This document shows positions 27,232 to 34,414 of a stretch of 37,671 nt of DNA, in pieces; within the stretch, counting starts at the first letter, position 1, and each line of letters starts with the position of its first letter. The stretch comes from Chloroflexota bacterium (lineage in GTDB: Bacteria > Chloroflexota > Dehalococcoidia > Lucifugimonadales > JACPCL1). The position numbers and the translations under genes were made by a program. The stretch is taken from assembly GCA_016202485.1 (NCBI GenBank), contig JACQOP010000039.1, positions 1 to 37,671 of the forward strand, in the 5' to 3' direction. Below the pieces are notes generated by a model, which did not search any database, was not told the DNA's origin, and saw only the letters and a list, made by a program, of their open reading frames with translations.

Positions 27232-27366
27232 GGCCGGCATACCGCACACATGAGGAAAACCAGACGCTGCGCCCTTTGGATAGGCTCTGGCATCTAACCT
27301 ACCCTAGCCAGTTGGATGTCAGGCGATTATACTTTCCCCTATCCCACCGTCCACCTGAGGGTCCAT

Positions 27367-28665
27367 ATGAAAGAACTTCCCAAGCTGCCGTTTCAGGGCG
27401 TCCCCACAGACCCCGCCACCCTCTTTGCTGATTACCAGCAGGCCCGCAAGGTCACCGAGGCCATCTGCGCCCCTCTGGAGATTGAAGACTACATGGTCCA
27501 GGCCATGACCGATGCCAGCCCCGCCCGCTGGCACCTGGGCCACGTCACCTGGTTCTTTGAGACCTTCATCCTGAAGGAGTACACGCCCGGCTACAAGCCC
27601 GTCAACGACGTGTACGCATATCTCTTCAACTCCTATTACAACAGCGCCGGCCCCCAGTTCTACCGGCCCCATCGCGGCCTCATCTCCCGGCCCACCGTTA
27701 AACAGGTCTATGACTACCGTAAGCAGATTGATGAGCACATGGCGGACCTCATTGAAACTGCTCCACCCCACCTAATGGAAGGCCTTGTGGGGTCCCTCAT
27801 CATCCTGGGCGTCAATCACGAGCAGCAACACCAGGAACTCCTCGTGACTGACATCAAGTACAACCTCTCGGTGAACCCCTTGCACCCGGTCTATCAGAAG
27901 GTGAACATACCCAGCCTACCCCCAGCAGCCCCCCTGCGCTGGGTGCATTTTGAAGGCGGCCTCCACACCATCGGCCATGACGCCCAGGGGTTTGCCTTTG
28001 ACAACGAATGGCCCCGCCATCAGGCCTACGTTGCCCCCTTCCTCCTCGCCTCCCGCCCCGTGACCAACGCCGAGTTCATGGAGTTCATTGAGGCCGGCGG
28101 CTATGAGCGGGTGGACCTGTGGCTCTCCGCAGGGTGGCGCACCATGAAGGAGCAGGGCTGGCAAGCCCCCCTGTACTGGGAGAAGCATGACGGCCTGTGG
28201 TGGCACCACACCATGTCAGGCTTTCTGCCCGTGGACCAGAACGCCCTCCTCTGCCACGTCAGTTACTACGAAGCCGACGCCTACGCCCGCTGGCGGGACA
28301 AACGCCTGCCCACAGAAGAAGAATGGGAATTTGCTGCCCTGCGCCAACCCCTTCAGGGCAACCTCCTGGAGTCCGGCCTGTACCACCCCCTCGGTGGGAC
28401 GTCACCCAGGGCCGGCCAGGAGCTGGAGCATATGTTTGGCGACGTGTGGGAGTGGACCAAGAGCGCCTACCTCCCCTACCCCGGGTTCCAGCCCCTCCAG
28501 GGAAGCGTGGGCGAGTACAACGGCAAGTTCATGGTCAACCAGATGGTCCTCCGTGGCGGCTCCTGTGCAACGCCCCTGTCCCACATCCGGCCAACCTATC
28601 GCAATTTCTTCCCGCCCGACGCCCGCTGGCAGTTCTCTGGAGTCCGCCTGGCGGACGATGCGTAA
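27367..28665 (+). CDS. egtB: Ergothioneine biosynthesis protein EgtB (sulfoxide synthase family)
   Basis: This 432-residue non-heme iron enzyme joins hercynine (trimethylhistidine) to a thiol donor as a sulfoxide. The N-terminal DinB_2 domain supplies iron ligands in RWHLGHVTWFFE (about His56/His59) and NHEQQHQELLVTDIKYN (His151, His155). The C-terminal half is an FGE-sulfatase domain with RLPTEEEWEFAA, GDVWEWTKSAY, VLRGGSCATP and RPTYRNFFPPDARW. GAGGG precedes the ATG at 27367; an upstream in-frame ATG at 27316 adds 17 unconserved residues. The stop TAA overlaps the egtD ribosome site, so the genes are coupled. No EgtA, EgtC or EgtE gene is present, so the thiol donor may be cysteine or another thiol. 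Confidence 0.93.
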   Translation: MKELPKLPFQGVPTDPATLFADYQQARKVTEAICAPLEIEDYMVQAMTDASPARWHLGHVTWFFETFILKEYTPGYKPVNDVYAYLFNSYYNSAGPQFYRPHRGLISRPTVKQVYDYRKQIDEHMADLIETAPPHLMEGLVGSLIILGVNHEQQHQELLVTDIKYNLSVNPLHPVYQKVNIPSLPPAAPLRWVHFEGGLHTIGHDAQGFAFDNEWPRHQAYVAPFLLASRPVTNAEFMEFIEAGGYERVDLWLSAGWRTMKEQGWQAPLYWEKHDGLWWHHTMSGFLPVDQNALLCHVSYYEADAYARWRDKRLPTEEEWEFAALRQPLQGNLLESGLYHPLGGTSPRAGQELEHMFGDVWEWTKSAYLPYPGFQPLQGSVGEYNGKFMVNQMVLRGGSCATPLSHIRPTYRNFFPPDARWQFSGVRLADDA

Positions 28666-28675: not shown

Positions 28676-29644
28676 GTGTCCTACTCTCTAGACGTGTTCC
28701 TGGAACCCTATGCCTTCAAGCAGAACCTGGCAGCCGATGTGCGCCGGGGCCTCACAGCACCACAGAAATACCTCCTGCCTAAGTATTTCTATGACGACGC
28801 CGGCTCAAAGCTCTTTGACCGCATCACGGAGCTGCCAGAGTATTACCTTACCAGGACAGAGCAACACCTCTTCTCGTCAGTGAAGCCCCACATCCTCAAG
28901 GCAACGCGCCCCCAAGAGGTCGTGGAGCTGGGCTGCGGCAACGGCGATAAGTTCCGCTGGCTCTTGCACGCTGCCAGGGACAGGGAAATCTCCGCCTACA
29001 TTCCAATGGACATGAATGCCGGCCTGGTGGAGTCCGTGGCCAGGGACCTCGTACGGGACTACCCATTCCTAGCGGTCCACGGAATCGTTGGAGACTTTGA
29101 AACGCACCTGGCCCACATCCCACCGCCAAAAGGCCGCCGCCTGGTCACCTTTATGGGCAGCACCATCGGCAACCTGGGCCCGGAGCAACGCAAGGGCTTC
29201 ATTGCTCAGCTACGGTGCCTCCTGGACGAAGGAAGCCATGCCCTGATAGGTCTTGACCTGGTGAAAGACGCAGGAATGCTGGAGGCAGCCTACAACGATC
29301 AGGCGGGGGTGACTGCTGATTTCAACCGGAACATCCTGCTTGTCCTGAATAGGGAGCTTGCCGGCGACTTCCGGCCTGAAACCTTTACCCATCACGCCTT
29401 CTTCAATAGAGAAGCCAGCCGCATAGAAATGCACCTGGTCTCCCGGAAAGAGCAGCAGGTGCGCCTCGCCGCTCTGGAAATGCAGGCAGCATTTCAGAGT
29501 GACGAGACCATCTGGACGGAAAGCTCCTACAAGTTCACCGTTGGTATGGTGGAAGAGATGCTGGCGGCAGGCGGTCTGCGATTGGAGCAGTGGTATACCG
29601 ATGAGGCAGGCTGGTATGCGTTGGCCCTCATTGGGACAGCCTAG
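28676..29644 (+). CDS. egtD: L-histidine N-alpha-methyltransferase EgtD
   Basis: A 322-residue SAM-dependent enzyme that trimethylates histidine to hercynine, the first step of ergothioneine synthesis. PQKYLLPKYFYDDAGSKLFDRITELPEYYLTRTE (residues 29-62) is diagnostic. The SAM motif is VVELGCGNGDKFRWLL (82-97) and the FMGSTIGNLGPEQR loop follows. AYNDQAGVTADFNRNIL and ESSYKFTVGMVEEML are typical of the C-terminal part. The frame is open far upstream through egtB in a different phase, but the GTG at 28676 has AAGGGA six bases before it and gives the normal family length; ATG 28658 would add six residues. Product feeds EgtB, encoded just upstream. Confidence 0.94.
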   Translation: MSYSLDVFLEPYAFKQNLAADVRRGLTAPQKYLLPKYFYDDAGSKLFDRITELPEYYLTRTEQHLFSSVKPHILKATRPQEVVELGCGNGDKFRWLLHAARDREISAYIPMDMNAGLVESVARDLVRDYPFLAVHGIVGDFETHLAHIPPPKGRRLVTFMGSTIGNLGPEQRKGFIAQLRCLLDEGSHALIGLDLVKDAGMLEAAYNDQAGVTADFNRNILLVLNRELAGDFRPETFTHHAFFNREASRIEMHLVSRKEQQVRLAALEMQAAFQSDETIWTESSYKFTVGMVEEMLAAGGLRLEQWYTDEAGWYALALIGTA

Positions 29645-29690: not shown

Positions 29691-29939
29691 ATGCAGGAGC
29701 CAATAAGAGTGTACGGTGCAGAGACCTGTGCGGATACACAACGCTCTCGCCGGCTTCTAGAAGCCCATCACGTACCATACACATGGATAGACGTGGACAC
29801 AGACCAGGCCTCAGAACAGCTCATCAGAGGCTTGAACAAAGGGGCCCGCGCCACACCCACCATCGTCTTTGCCGACGGCACAGGAATGATTGAGCCGTCA
29901 GACGAAGCCCTGGCAAGGAAGCTGGGCCTTCTTTCCTAG
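29691..29939 (+). CDS. Glutaredoxin-like protein with CxxT active site
   Basis: An 82-residue thioredoxin-fold protein, IRVYGAETCADTQRSRRLLEAHHVPYTWIDVD, then ATPTIVFADG with the cis-Pro and a C-terminal EALARKLGL helix. The active site is Cys-Ala-Asp-Thr, a monothiol C-x-x-T. It belongs with the NrdH/mycoredoxin-like glutaredoxins that reduce mixed disulfides of low-molecular-weight thiols. Its residues align without gaps to the middle domain (144-219) of the response-regulator fusion at 31410-33071, which has lost the Cys. It lies 46 bases after egtD on the same strand and converges on the histidine kinase gene. Confidence 0.85.
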   Translation: MQEPIRVYGAETCADTQRSRRLLEAHHVPYTWIDVDTDQASEQLIRGLNKGARATPTIVFADGTGMIEPSDEALARKLGLLS

Positions 29940-29949
29940 CAGGCGAAGA

Positions 29950-31380
29950 TTATTTGGAGCCGAAGTCTAGGGGCAGGACCACCTTGAAAGTCGTTCTCCC
30001 TGGAACAGAGTCCACTTTGATCTCGCCCTTGTGCTTGAACGTCACGATGTTATAGCTGATGTCCAGTCCCAGGCCCGTCCCCTTTCCCAGCGGCTTTGTG
30101 GTGAAAAAGGCGTCAAATATCCTGGGAAGAACGTGGGGCGGAATGCCTGGGCCGTTGTCTTCCACCTCTACCACCACACTCCCCTCCGCCGTATACGTGC
30201 GCAGCCGGATCTCCCCCTGTCCATCAAGAGCATCCGTCGCATTGTCTATGAGGTTCGTCCATACCTGGTTCAGCTCGCTGCCATACCCCTGGATTTTTGG
30301 CAGGTCAGGGCTGTATTCCCGTTTGACCTGGATGCCCCCCTTCAGCTTGTGGCGCAAAATCAGAAGGGTGTTGTCCAGCCCTTCATGGATGTCCACCTCC
30401 TGCACAGGAGCCTGGTCCAGATAGGAATAGGACTTCAGTGCGCGAACAATGTCGGAGATTCGCGTTGCCCCCTGGCCTATCTCGGTCATCAGGTTGTGGA
30501 CGTTGTAGACGCTGATAAGCCGGCGCAGGACAGCCTCTAGATGGCCCTCCTGAAAGGTCTCGCCCAGCTCTGCCAGCTCCTCCTGGCCAAGAGCAAGGTT
30601 CACAAGGTCAGGGGCAAGCTCCCATCCATCGGGCACCCCTTGGTCTTCCAGCCACTGCTCCAGCTCGTATGCCTTGTCGCTGCGGCTAAGCGCATCCATC
30701 TCAACATAGGCAGTCGCCCTCGTCCGGGCTAACTGGGTGAACGGCTGTAGCACATGGCGCTGAGCTTCTGTAAGGCTCATCATATCCAGACGCCCTTGCG
30801 CCTCTCCGTAGTGGGCCACCGCCTCCCGGAGCTGCTCCGCGCCCCGTTTCACCGCCGCCGCGGGATTGTTTAGCTCGTGGGCCACCCCGGCAGTCAGCGT
30901 CCCAAGCTGGGCCATCTTCTCGCTCTGGCGGAGCACGTTCTCCGTGGACCGCCACCGTTGCAGCACGGTGTGCATCACCGCTTTCGCTGCGGCGGTGCTT
31001 ATGTCCAGCAAGTGGTCAAACTGCTCCTTGTGTATGGCGTAGAGCACCGACTCACGACTGGCGCGCACGGTGGCGGTCCGGGGCATCTGTTCCAGGAGGG
31101 CCATTTCGCCAAGGATGTCGCCCGGCTCGTTGCGCAAGGACAAAAGCACCTGCCGCCCCCCCGTCTCTTTCAGTACCTCCAGCTCCCCGCTCTTCAAAAT
31201 ATAGGCCTTGTCCCCAGGTTCCCCTTCCTTGCACAACACTTCCCCAGGGGACAGGCACACTTCCTCCGCAGACTCACACAAGCGCTCCAAGTCCTCCTCA
31301 GGCAGGCTGCTAAACAGAGGCACCTTCCTTAGGAATTCGTGCGCCAAAGTATGCTGGCAGTTGTCGGTCAAGCTATTCAT
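29950..31380 (-). CDS. Cyclic-nucleotide-binding sensor histidine kinase
   Basis: A 476-residue cytoplasmic kinase without membrane segments. Residues about 18-130 are a CNB domain: the phosphate-binding cassette reads GDILGEMALLEQMPRTATVRA (87-107, Glu92 and Arg101), matching cAMP-binding CAP/PKA-type sites. The HisKA region has His168 in AGVAHELNNP. An unusual 130-residue helical insert lies between this and the ATPase domain, which has NQVWTNLIDNATDAL (N box), DNGPGI (G1), FDAFFTTK (F box) and GKGTGLGL (G2). AAAGGG lies five bases before the ATG. It is the last gene of the operon with an adenylate cyclase and its likely response regulator (29 bases upstream). Confidence 0.93.
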   Translation of the reverse strand: MNSLTDNCQHTLAHEFLRKVPLFSSLPEEDLERLCESAEEVCLSPGEVLCKEGEPGDKAYILKSGELEVLKETGGRQVLLSLRNEPGDILGEMALLEQMPRTATVRASRESVLYAIHKEQFDHLLDISTAAAKAVMHTVLQRWRSTENVLRQSEKMAQLGTLTAGVAHELNNPAAAVKRGAEQLREAVAHYGEAQGRLDMMSLTEAQRHVLQPFTQLARTRATAYVEMDALSRSDKAYELEQWLEDQGVPDGWELAPDLVNLALGQEELAELGETFQEGHLEAVLRRLISVYNVHNLMTEIGQGATRISDIVRALKSYSYLDQAPVQEVDIHEGLDNTLLILRHKLKGGIQVKREYSPDLPKIQGYGSELNQVWTNLIDNATDALDGQGEIRLRTYTAEGSVVVEVEDNGPGIPPHVLPRIFDAFFTTKPLGKGTGLGLDISYNIVTFKHKGEIKVDSVPGRTTFKVVLPLDFGSK

Positions 31381-31409
31381 GGCGGCCCTTTATGTATGGT
31401 TCCCTTCAA

Positions 31410-33071
31410 TCATACCGTTGCCAGGTACTGGTGAACAAGGCTCACGGCTATAGCGCCCTCTCCGACAGCAGAGGCAACCCTGCGGACCACACCATTACGC
31501 ACGTCTCCGGCGGCAAAGATGCCGGGGACGCTGGTCTCCAGCAAATAAGGGTCGCGGTTGGGCTTCCACCCCTTGGGACGCTGCCCGTTCTTCACAAGGT
31601 CAGGGCCGGTAAGGATCAGCCCCGCAGGGTTTCGCTCCACAACCCCGGCCACCAGGTCCGTGTGAGGGCTGGCGCCAATGAACACAAACACCGCTGAGGC
31701 GGGCGCCGTGCTCTCAGCCCCGTCAAGCCTGTTCTTGAGGGTAATAGTCTCCAACTTGCGCTGTCCGCCCACCGCGCTGACTTCTATATTGGTCCGGACC
31801 TCTATGTTCGGGGTCTTGTGTATCTGGTCTACCAGATAGTGGGACATGCTTTCGGCTATGGAGCCGCCGCGCACCAGCATGGTGACCCTGCTTGCATACT
31901 GGGCAAGAAAGATAGCCCCCTGCCCTGCCGAGTTGGCGCCCCCCACCACAAAGACGTGTCCCCCTTTGTAATAGGCCGCCTCCGTCATGGCAGCGCCGTA
32001 GTAGACACCGGCCCCCGTAATGGCCTCGGCTCCTGGCACCATCAGCTTGCTCACCGTAACCCCCGTGGCAATAATCAAGGCACGGGACACCACCTCGGAG
32101 CCGTCATTGAGCGTCACAATGCGATTGGGGTCTTCCACACGTACCTTCACCGCTTCCAGCCCCGTCAGGATCTCAGCGCCGAACCGGCGGGCTTGAATGG
32201 TCGCCCGCTGGGCCAGGTCGCTGCCGCTTAGCCCGTTGGGGAACCCAAGGTAGTTCTCAATGCGGGAAGAGGTGCCAGCCTGCCCACCCGTGGCCTGGCT
32301 CTCTATCATGGCAGTGCGCAGGCCCTCGGAGGCCCCATACACGGCAGCCCCCAGTCCTGCAGGGCCTGCGCCGACAATGACAATATCGTACAGGGGCTGG
32401 TTCGCGTGGGTCTGCAAGCCCACTTTTTCTGCAAGGCTTCTGGTGTCCGGCTCAATGAGCACGTCCCCATCGGGCAAAAAAATCACCGGAAGGCGGTGCT
32501 GGCCTTGGTTGACCTCCTCCACCAGCAGCCTCGCCTGCTCATCCTTCTCCACGTCCAGCCACTGGTAGGGAATGCGGTTGCGGGCCAAGAAGTCCTTGAC
32601 GTTGTGGGAGGCGCTGGACCACTGGGTTCCTGCCACCCTGATGCCCTCGTAGGGTAAGGGAGTGGCTGCAGCCCAGACGGACAGCAGGTCGTCAAGGACG
32701 GGATAGAGGTTCTGCTCTGGCGGGTCCCAGGGCTTCATCAGGTAGTAATCAAGCCCAACGTCGTTGATGCTCCGGATTGCCGCCTCTGTATCGGCGTAGG
32801 CGGTCAGCAGGACTTTTTTTGCCTCTGGGTAAAGGCGCTTGGCCTCCGCCAGGAACTCAACCCCCGTCATCGCCGGCATGCGCTGGTCCACCAGGAACAG
32901 GGCAATGGGGTCATTGCGGCGCTTGAACTCCTTCACCGCCGCCAGCGCCTCCTTACCAGAAAATGCCTTGACAATCCGGTACTCGCGGCGAAAGTGGGAC
33001 CGCAAGTCCCGCTCTACGGCGTTCACCACCTGGGGCTCATCGTCAACTGTCAGGATAATGGGCGTAACCAT
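31410..33071 (-). CDS. Fusion: response regulator receiver - glutaredoxin-like domain - TrxR-like FAD oxidoreductase
   Basis: A 553-residue three-domain protein. Residues 1-130 are a REC domain (Asp10, Asp11, phospho-acceptor Asp62, Thr90, Lys113). Residues 144-219 are a glutaredoxin-like fold in which the active-site Cys is Ser (QWSSAS). Residues 226-553 are a thioredoxin-reductase-like flavoprotein: IVIVGAGPAGLGAA for FAD (GxGxxG 234-239), VVGGANSAGQG for NAD(P)H (about 376-384), and GIFAAGDVRNG at the C-terminus. Where TrxR has CATC, this protein has YYGAAM (about 358-362), so no redox dithiol remains. It therefore cannot reduce thioredoxin in the classic way. Phosphorylation by the adjacent kinase (31380) probably controls the FAD domain. 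Confidence 0.92.
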   Translation of the reverse strand: MVTPIILTVDDEPQVVNAVERDLRSHFRREYRIVKAFSGKEALAAVKEFKRRNDPIALFLVDQRMPAMTGVEFLAEAKRLYPEAKKVLLTAYADTEAAIRSINDVGLDYYLMKPWDPPEQNLYPVLDDLLSVWAAATPLPYEGIRVAGTQWSSASHNVKDFLARNRIPYQWLDVEKDEQARLLVEEVNQGQHRLPVIFLPDGDVLIEPDTRSLAEKVGLQTHANQPLYDIVIVGAGPAGLGAAVYGASEGLRTAMIESQATGGQAGTSSRIENYLGFPNGLSGSDLAQRATIQARRFGAEILTGLEAVKVRVEDPNRIVTLNDGSEVVSRALIIATGVTVSKLMVPGAEAITGAGVYYGAAMTEAAYYKGGHVFVVGGANSAGQGAIFLAQYASRVTMLVRGGSIAESMSHYLVDQIHKTPNIEVRTNIEVSAVGGQRKLETITLKNRLDGAESTAPASAVFVFIGASPHTDLVAGVVERNPAGLILTGPDLVKNGQRPKGWKPNRDPYLLETSVPGIFAAGDVRNGVVRRVASAVGEGAIAVSLVHQYLATV

Positions 33072-33128
33072 ACACGAACTCGTAACCCCTCACACTCAGA
33101 TTACCTGGCCCCTGCAGCAGGTCGGCGG

Positions 33129-33455
33129 TCAGGACCGTTCCCCTCTGCGGCTCCGCCCCCTTCTACGTGCCGTCCTGAGCGTCGGCGCTTCACCCACAAC
33201 AGCATCATCCACGTAGCACCATATCCACTCCTCATCGGGTTCAAAAGACTGCACCAGGGGATGCCCCACGGTCCGGAAGTGGCCGCTGGCATGCTTGTTC
33301 TTGGAATCGTCGCAGCAACCCACGTTGCCGCACGTGAGACACATGCGCAGGTGCACCCACCTGTCCCCAATGGCCAGGCACTGTGCACACCCCTGGGCGT
33401 TCGGAGTCACATCCTGCACCGCATCCCCATGCTCGCAGTCTATTTCAATGGCCAT
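33129..33455 (-). CDS. UBP-type zinc-finger protein
   Basis: A 108-residue protein with a UBP zinc-finger pattern: CEHGDAV (Cys7, His9), CAQC (Cys23, Cys26), CLTCGNVGCC (Cys39, Cys42, Cys47/48), then H..GH..VGHPLVQSFEP with three His. WIWCYVDDAVVGE follows. In bacteria this domain is found next to or fused with response-regulator/TrxR-like proteins; a role in binding a C-terminal Gly-Gly or another peptide end is conceivable but unproven. AAGGAGG at 33460-33466 sits four bases before the ATG at 33455, which rules out the longer open frame upstream that overlaps the cyclase. The C-terminus is Arg-rich. Confidence 0.88.
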   Translation of the reverse strand: MAIEIDCEHGDAVQDVTPNAQGCAQCLAIGDRWVHLRMCLTCGNVGCCDDSKNKHASGHFRTVGHPLVQSFEPDEEWIWCYVDDAVVGEAPTLRTARRRGRSRRGERS

Positions 33456-33526
33456 TATTCCTCCTTGGATAGTCCAATGCCCCCCTAAGAGGGCCGTGCG
33501 CTGCCTTCTCCCAGCAACCCTTAGCC

Positions 33527-34300
33527 TCACGAGTCCAAACGCATCACCCGGATCACGACCGGCTGCTCCCGGCCACGGACGCTGACAGTCCGCTGCTCCA
33601 GGCTCGGATACCGGTCCGCCACGTACTGGTAAATGGTGTCGCTCAACACTACCTCTCCCCCCTGGGCCTCCGCCTGCAGCCGGGCAGCCGTGTTGACGGT
33701 GTCTCCCAGGACCGTGAAGTCGTGGACACCGCCACTGCCGATCTTGCCCACAAAGGCGGTGCCTGTGTGGACAGCAACACCCAGAGGCAGCCAAGGGGCC
33801 TGCGTGCTGCCATAGCCCACGGCCCTGAGTAACCCTTCCGCAGCCAGGACTGCGTCCTTCTGGAAGGTCGGGGCCCGGGCAGGAAGAAAGAAGGCCATCA
33901 CCTCATCCCCCAGCATCTTGTCAATGATGGCCCTGTGGTCCACCAGCACGCTCGTCGCTGCAGCGTAGAAGCGGTTCAGCAGCCCGGCGAAGGCCCCTGC
34001 CCCCATATGCTCCCCCAGCGCAGTGGAGCCACGCACGTCTGCAAACAGCACAGCAATGTCCACCTCTGCGCCCCCTACGGGCAGGATGTCATCACACAGG
34101 TTGCACATGTTAGGGTTCTTGCGGGAAGGCCCCCGTTTCCCTAGCCGGGCAACCACACCACCTACTCCTCCAAAGGGAGTGCTGCACACCAGGCAGCGAG
34201 GGTTGCTGGGCAACACCGCAAGGCGGGAACGGTGTCCCTTGGTCAGGACATCCCGCCACACGGCTTCAATCTCCGGCGATACGTTTTGCTGGTTTGCCAT
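33527..34300 (-). CDS. Class III adenylate cyclase with CxxC-CxxC N-terminal region
   Basis: A 257-residue class III cyclase. Metal-binding Asp88 (LFADVRGST) and Asp132 (DKMLGDEVMAFF), substrate Lys128, and HDFTVLGDTVNTAARLQ with Asp194, Asn203 and Arg207 are all present. Lys/Asp at the base-selecting sites predict ATP, so cAMP is the product. The N-terminal 75 residues have two CxxC pairs (Cys36/39 and Cys66/69), possibly a zinc or redox site that senses the cell state. No membrane segment is seen. It heads a four-gene minus-strand operon whose last gene carries a cAMP-type binding domain. Confidence 0.92.
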   Translation of the reverse strand: MANQQNVSPEIEAVWRDVLTKGHRSRLAVLPSNPRCLVCSTPFGGVGGVVARLGKRGPSRKNPNMCNLCDDILPVGGAEVDIAVLFADVRGSTALGEHMGAGAFAGLLNRFYAAATSVLVDHRAIIDKMLGDEVMAFFLPARAPTFQKDAVLAAEGLLRAVGYGSTQAPWLPLGVAVHTGTAFVGKIGSGGVHDFTVLGDTVNTAARLQAEAQGGEVVLSDTIYQYVADRYPSLEQRTVSVRGREQPVVIRVMRLDS

Positions 34301-34414
34301 GCTGCACCCCCCACAAGGCCTTGATGTATGCGCATCAAGAGGCCAAAAGCTGACTTAGCATAATCCTTGTGGGAATGCGTGACAAGCACCCGCCCCGTTC
34401 CTATCCCGGCGGCC

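Follow-up and report, generated by a model that had tools for sequence, protein, structure and literature searches.

The targets of response regulators characterised so far are mostly DNA, c-di-GMP or protein partners. Response regulators in which a receiver (REC) domain is joined to a thioredoxin reductase (TrxR) are on record as "Mycobacterium-like", as an architecture only (PMC5847659), and the fusion protein described here falls in the same architecture class, with a REC domain that carries a phospho-acceptor Asp and a TrxR-like domain. Beyond that record, we show a conserved set of partners, namely a histidine kinase with a cyclic-nucleotide-binding (CNB) domain, a nucleotide cyclase and a UBP-type zinc finger protein, and find both CxxC motifs lost throughout the family. 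Plasmid records label REC-TrxR proteins merely "FAD-dependent oxidoreductase", and no functional work on the kinase-fusion pair was found in a full-text search of the openly licensed literature. Low-Mr thioredoxin reductase and AhpF have the FAD/NAD(P)H fold and Gly-rich motifs in common with the fusion, and AhpF also has N-terminal thioredoxin-fold domains; the fusion differs from both in the REC domain at its front and in the absence of CxxC from either redox domain, which makes thiol chemistry impossible. FFTR and DDOR, TrxR-like flavoproteins with altered sites, keep the CxxC and lose the NADPH site (PMC9025218), whereas the fusion family presents the opposite case, with the NAD(P)H motif kept and the CxxC lost. 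Like the TrxR-fold ferredoxin-NADP reductases, these proteins re-use the fold for other electron routes, as the fusion appears to do.

The window analysed here is a whole contig of 37,671 bases from a Chloroflexota bacterium, part of a 1.87 Mb assembly that is 77% complete. Consistent with the initial annotation, ORF calls place four genes on the minus strand, in the order cyclase, UBP, fusion and kinase with gaps of 71, 57 and 29 bases, and Pfam matches bear out each domain that it had named (Table 1). The UBP gene starts with the ATG at 33455 behind a Shine-Dalgarno sequence, AAGGAGGAAT. No terminator-like sites were found on the coding strand within the gaps of the cassette; the one promoter-like match in the region compares with 1.1 expected by chance in shuffled sequence. 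The four genes are likely to form one operon. Its nucleotide composition does not stand out.

Table 1. The cassette, its domains and its flanking genes, in window positions
Feature	Positions	Strand	Remarks
egtB	27316-28665	+	convergent with cassette; associated neighbour
egtD	28682-29644	+	convergent with cassette; associated neighbour
Mycoredoxin-like glutaredoxin, CADT motif	29691-29939	+	convergent, 10 bases from kinase stop; associated neighbour
CNB-domain histidine kinase	29950-31380	-	476 aa; Pfam cNMP_binding 4.9e-22, HATPase_c 9.1e-25
Cyclic-nucleotide-binding domain of kinase	31003-31254	-	phosphate-binding cassette GEMALLEQMPRTATV intact (E92, R101)
REC - pseudo-glutaredoxin - TrxR-like flavoprotein fusion	31410-33071	-	553 aa, cysteine-free
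TrxR-like FAD/NAD(P)H domains	31413-32405	-	aa 223-553; CxxC site is GAAM (aa 359-362)
Glutaredoxin-like domain	32406-32651	-	aa 141-222; catalytic CxxC replaced by S152-S-A-S155
REC domain	32688-33071	-	aa 1-128; acidic pair D10/D11, phospho-acceptor D62 (codon 32886-32888), T90, K113
UBP-type zinc finger protein	33129-33455	-	108 aa; Pfam zf-UBP 4.1e-14
Class III nucleotide cyclase	33527-34300	-	257 aa; Pfam Guanylate_cyc 1.2e-13
Sigma-70-like promoter match TTGTCA-17-TATGCT	34357-34385	-	just upstream of cyclase; sole match in region

We favour, at a probability of roughly 55%, the reading of the cassette as a two-component system whose output is a flavoprotein, in which a CNB-gated kinase supplied with cAMP by the cyclase would control non-thiol electron transfer, the UBP protein being an accessory. 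The arrangement of the neighbourhood, its domains, its intact catalytic residues and its loss of cysteines can be read from the sequence directly, and comparative genomics lends good support to the logic of the pathway as far as phosphotransfer.

The folds of the "REC-Grx-TrxR" protein stood up to Pfam analysis (Response_reg 6.4e-15, Glutaredoxin 2.5e-5, Pyr_redox_2 1.6e-33), but the thiol chemistry that this name implied did not. Aligned with a glutaredoxin of the same genome, the site that reads TRWCGDCH there is TQWSSASH in the fusion, where serine replaces both catalytic cysteines and the residues match neither CxxC nor CxxS; aligned with the genome's true thioredoxin reductase, CATC becomes GAAM. 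These substitutions are general, as 117 of 127 fusion homologues have Ser and 8 have Ala at the first position of the glutaredoxin site, the TrxR site is YYGAA-like in all 127, and cysteine occurs at either CxxC site in none of them. One could still envision a REC-regulated thioredoxin or glutaredoxin reductase acting in a thiol redox relay, since the fusion has thioredoxin reductases as its nearest solved structures and NCBIfam matches, and a mycoredoxin-like middle domain. However, the score of the fusion against the thioredoxin reductase model TIGR01292 (235.9) is under the cut-off (343.45), and the genome encodes a separate, ordinary thioredoxin reductase with CATC. Because both CxxC motifs are absent and the 553 residues include not one cysteine, the protein is unable to carry out dithiol exchange; direct dithiol chemistry is refuted, and we give this alternative, and with it the glutaredoxin/TrxR-type thiol relay that the earlier naming implied, almost no credence.

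What the fusion retains is equally consistent across the family. The REC residues D10/D11, D62, T90 and K113 are kept in 122 to 126 of the 127 homologues, and the proposal that Asp62 occupies the phospho-acceptor position holds, with Asp there in 126. The FAD/NAD(P)H Gly-rich motifs, VGAGPAGL and VVGGANSA, are present with invariant Gly columns, and R401 and D523 are also conserved. In an AlphaFold2 model (pLDDT 87.7), the TrxR part resembles the flavin-reducing conformer of Lactococcus TrxR (5mh4, TM 0.93) more than the flavin-oxidising one (5mjk, TM 0.62), a preference that may reflect training bias. The output is likely to be flavin/NAD(P)H chemistry under phosphorylation control, and we infer either a flavoprotein in which electrons from NAD(P)H travel via FAD to an acceptor other than a thiol, or a sensor of flavin/NAD(P)H state. 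In the former case, phosphorylation of the REC domain would alter the activity or the oligomeric state of the pseudo-glutaredoxin/TrxR-like part, and the FAD would most likely hand its electrons directly to the acceptor, be it oxygen, a quinone or a carrier protein.

In the latter case, the thiol-free flavoprotein would have no catalytic output and would report the NAD(P)H/flavin redox state, with feedback through its REC domain to the kinase or other two-component systems. The loss of both thiol sites throughout a family that retains its flavin/NAD(P)H motifs and REC residues would suit such a sensor, as would the kinases with REC-PAS-PAS or REC N-termini that lie beside some fusions and resemble a multi-input phosphorelay; moreover, a conserved adjacent electron-acceptor gene was not found in most loci. 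However, the NAD(P)H and FAD sites appear complete, and canonical REC phosphorylation residues next to a single orphan kinase are more simply explained by a terminal output, so we regard a pure sensor as unlikely, though the most serious of the competing explanations.

The kinase itself has the features expected of its class, with an H box and an HATPase_c domain (N, G1, F and G2 boxes; 9.1e-25). Its predicted phospho-accepting residue is His168, within AHELNNP, and the H box is kept in all 86 homologues (HELNNP exactly in 85, HEINNP in one). The kinase has no REC domain and the fusion no kinase domain, and it is probable from the comparison of loci that the two are cognate. His168 would be autophosphorylated under the control of the N-terminal CNB domain, and transfer of the phosphate from there to Asp62 of the fusion is a strongly supported prediction.

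To place the cassette among its relatives, we collected 80 from a scan of a genome collection and more from 400 genomes of the same phylum, and removed those with more than 85% identity, leaving 90 loci including the window; proximal genes were defined as those within 3 kb of the fusion, with the 3-7.5 kb distal zone as an internal control. The co-occurrence in other genomes that the initial annotation had called for was found, with proximal versus distal counts of 57 to 0 for CNB domains, 83 to 5 for kinase cores, 14 to 2 for cyclases (binomial p = 8e-4) and 11 to 1 for UBP zinc fingers (p = 0.002). Of the 35 Chloroflexota genomes in which the kinase match is strong, 32 have that kinase no more than about 1 kb from the fusion. 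The closest relatives of the fusion are predominantly from Chloroflexota, and the sampled relatives span 13 phyla (Chloroflexota, Thermomicrobiota, Cyanobacteriota, Actinomycetota, Deinococcota, Acidobacteriota, Gemmatimonadota, Pseudomonadota, Myxococcota, Thermodesulfobacteriota, Spirochaetota, Bacteroidota and Latescibacterota), a spread read from taxonomy and record titles and based mostly on metagenome bins, in which individual phylum assignments may be wrong. Kinase and fusion are therefore the conserved core of the system, and cyclase and UBP are optional, though enriched nearby. The idea that source, sensor, relay and output are encoded together accordingly survives across phyla for the kinase-fusion pair but not for the full set of four.

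The exact four-gene order, with the small CxxC cyclase, was found in the window alone, and strict conservation of that order is rejected: the CxxC cyclase homologues of several other Chloroflexota lie away from the fusion. This, together with the absence of the REC fusion from close relatives within the class, might suggest four genes that merely happen to be neighbours and share no function. Such an explanation seems to us very improbable, given that all three partners are enriched proximally across phyla and that several loci tie the parts together more closely. In Streptomyces fungicidicus, the fusion, a kinase with a CNB domain and a UBP gene follow one another with a 4-base overlap at each junction; in one genome (L180), UBP, CNB and kinase form a single ORF; two related Chloroflexota (L063 and L067) have the series UBP-cyclase-fusion-CNB kinase on a single strand, the cyclase being of a different type; and a further locus (L061) has all four parts with the cyclase divergent. 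Among the genomes listed, the window's own order yielded no match to the fusion, and its class yielded three, all lacking REC; because matches are so scarce and those present are without REC, the cassette may have been acquired horizontally. Separately, two related genomes (L205 and L206) have a UBP-CNB kinase pair distant from the fusion, with a cyclase divergent beside the pair in L205. Apparent long fusions of a histidine kinase to Grx-TrxR (L118 and L119) were rejected, as their N-terminal parts are domain-free and resemble out-of-frame translation.

The UBP protein, which would be an accessory of the kinase, is the sole zf-UBP found in its genome. Its zinc ligands are present, in a Cys/His pattern aligned to 2ida and to human ZnF-UBPs. 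The closest known counterpart is a stand-alone bacterial zf-UBP (PDB 2ida; E 7.8e-33), a clear homologue deposited as a hypothetical protein with no function assigned. At the position of the Arg in the USP16 motif CGRNS, the cassette protein has Asp49. In USP16 and HDAC6, this Arg binds the C-terminal carboxylate of ubiquitin. With the pocket Arg replaced by Asp, a ubiquitin-type function is rejected.

The cyclase has a full catalytic set, comprising the metal-binding Asp88 and Asp132, Asn203/Arg207 and the substrate-type residues Lys128/Thr196, a pair that we take to be the adenylate-type pairing of class IIIb enzymes; from these residues, the enzyme is predicted to produce cAMP from ATP. The CxxC pairs attributed to it were recovered at residues 36-39 and 66-69, and C36/C39 and C66/C69 could form an N-terminal zinc ribbon. 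Outside the catalytic domain, these small CxxC...CxxC cyclases (33527-34300 of the window; L072) belong to a family that Pfam does not name. On the side of the kinase, the pocket Glu (E92) and Arg (R101) are both present in the CNB domain, making cAMP from the neighbouring class III cyclase a plausible ligand that we infer with moderate confidence; the Thr that follows the Arg (R101-T102) is presumably compatible with cGMP as well.

It is nevertheless conceivable that the cyclase is a chance neighbour and that the CNB kinase and REC flavoprotein use another ligand or none. The small CxxC type adjoins the fusion only in the window and in one other locus (L072:9443-10615), most loci have no cyclase nearby, and the CNB Arg is gone in about half of the cyclase-free clusters, being lost in cyanobacteria, actinobacteria and many Chloroflexota kinases, which leads us to reject a cAMP pocket universal to the kinase family. 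The genome also encodes two further cyclases and three further CNB proteins, and cAMP would thus not be private to the cassette operon. These points are opposed by the eight-fold enrichment of cyclases near the fusion and by the repeated recruitment of different ones, with at least eight state changes in adjacency by parsimony on the fusion tree. The recruited enzymes, variously upstream, downstream or divergent, include, besides the small CxxC type, a zinc-ribbon-cyclase-AAA-TPR protein (L063, by Pfam) and those like it in length and sequence (L043, L048, L058 and L067), a cyclase-AAA-TPR protein (L188) and the cyclases of four other loci (L061, L073, L179 and L202). In addition, the pocket Glu and Arg are intact in every cyclase-adjacent CNB kinase (8/8 clusters) as compared to 19/42 cyclase-free clusters (p = 0.005; p = 0.008 with the window removed); on the tree, the contrast reduces to four independent pairs, for which a sign test is not significant and, at n = 4, powerless. 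The correlation is suggestive of a cAMP link, and we consider an unrelated cyclase doubtful, somewhat more so than a pure redox sensor. Under the favoured reading of a CNB-gated system, cAMP would be one input among several to the kinase-fusion core, because many relatives have a degenerate CNB pocket, and REC or REC-PAS-PAS sensors occur in other kinases beside the fusion.

A related arrangement is found at six loci of Chloroflexota (L122, L123, L124, L126, L131 and L132), where a CNB domain is fused directly to the same Grx-TrxR output, again with the glutaredoxin CxxC lost. These CNB-Grx-TrxR proteins differ from the cassette in having no REC domain or kinase step, and one of the six lies 19 bases from a cyclase. 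The pocket Arg is absent from their CNB domains, and their ligand may therefore not be a cyclic nucleotide.

The genes convergent with the cassette include egtB and egtD, of the ergothioneine pathway. In L063 and L067, egtD and egtB are likewise convergent just past the kinase, and in an Acidobacteriota bin (L052), egtD and an egtB-like gene lie directly downstream of the fusion; among the 12 fusion-bearing Chloroflexota genomes with egtD, that gene is adjacent to the fusion only in the window. The link between ergothioneine and the cassette is thus occasional but repeated (the window and two other lineages), and fits a role in redox defence. A bestrophin-like neighbour was rejected as part of the system, with no homologue near the other sampled fusions. 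Elsewhere in the same genome (L003, at about 1519-2577 of G000:C69), the genes for a CRP-like CNB regulator and a second glutaredoxin (WCGDC) lie divergently, making another pairing of a glutaredoxin with a cyclic-nucleotide sensor. In L116, the fusion is preceded upstream by an ORF of about 188 aa, VOC/glyoxalase-like as judged by eye, whose family occurs at 12 loci.

Taken at its fullest, the proposal is a route from cAMP to flavin, in which the cyclase would feed a cAMP-gated kinase and phosphorylation of the Asp would switch NAD(P)H-flavin electron transfer in a thiol-dead Grx/TrxR flavoprotein, tied to ergothioneine-based redox defence; we advance this complete version only tentatively. 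If it is true, the cassette would represent a class of two-component output for which we found no characterised member. In a widespread family, whose sampled loci come from 13 phyla, phosphorylation would be coupled to a flavoprotein that resembles a thiol reductase yet is unable to be one, and annotation of the fusion by its fold is misleading for this reason. From cyclase through kinase to flavoprotein, the neighbourhood offers a series of testable links, and it suggests a direct tie between cyclic-nucleotide signalling and the NAD(P)H/flavin redox state of bacteria.
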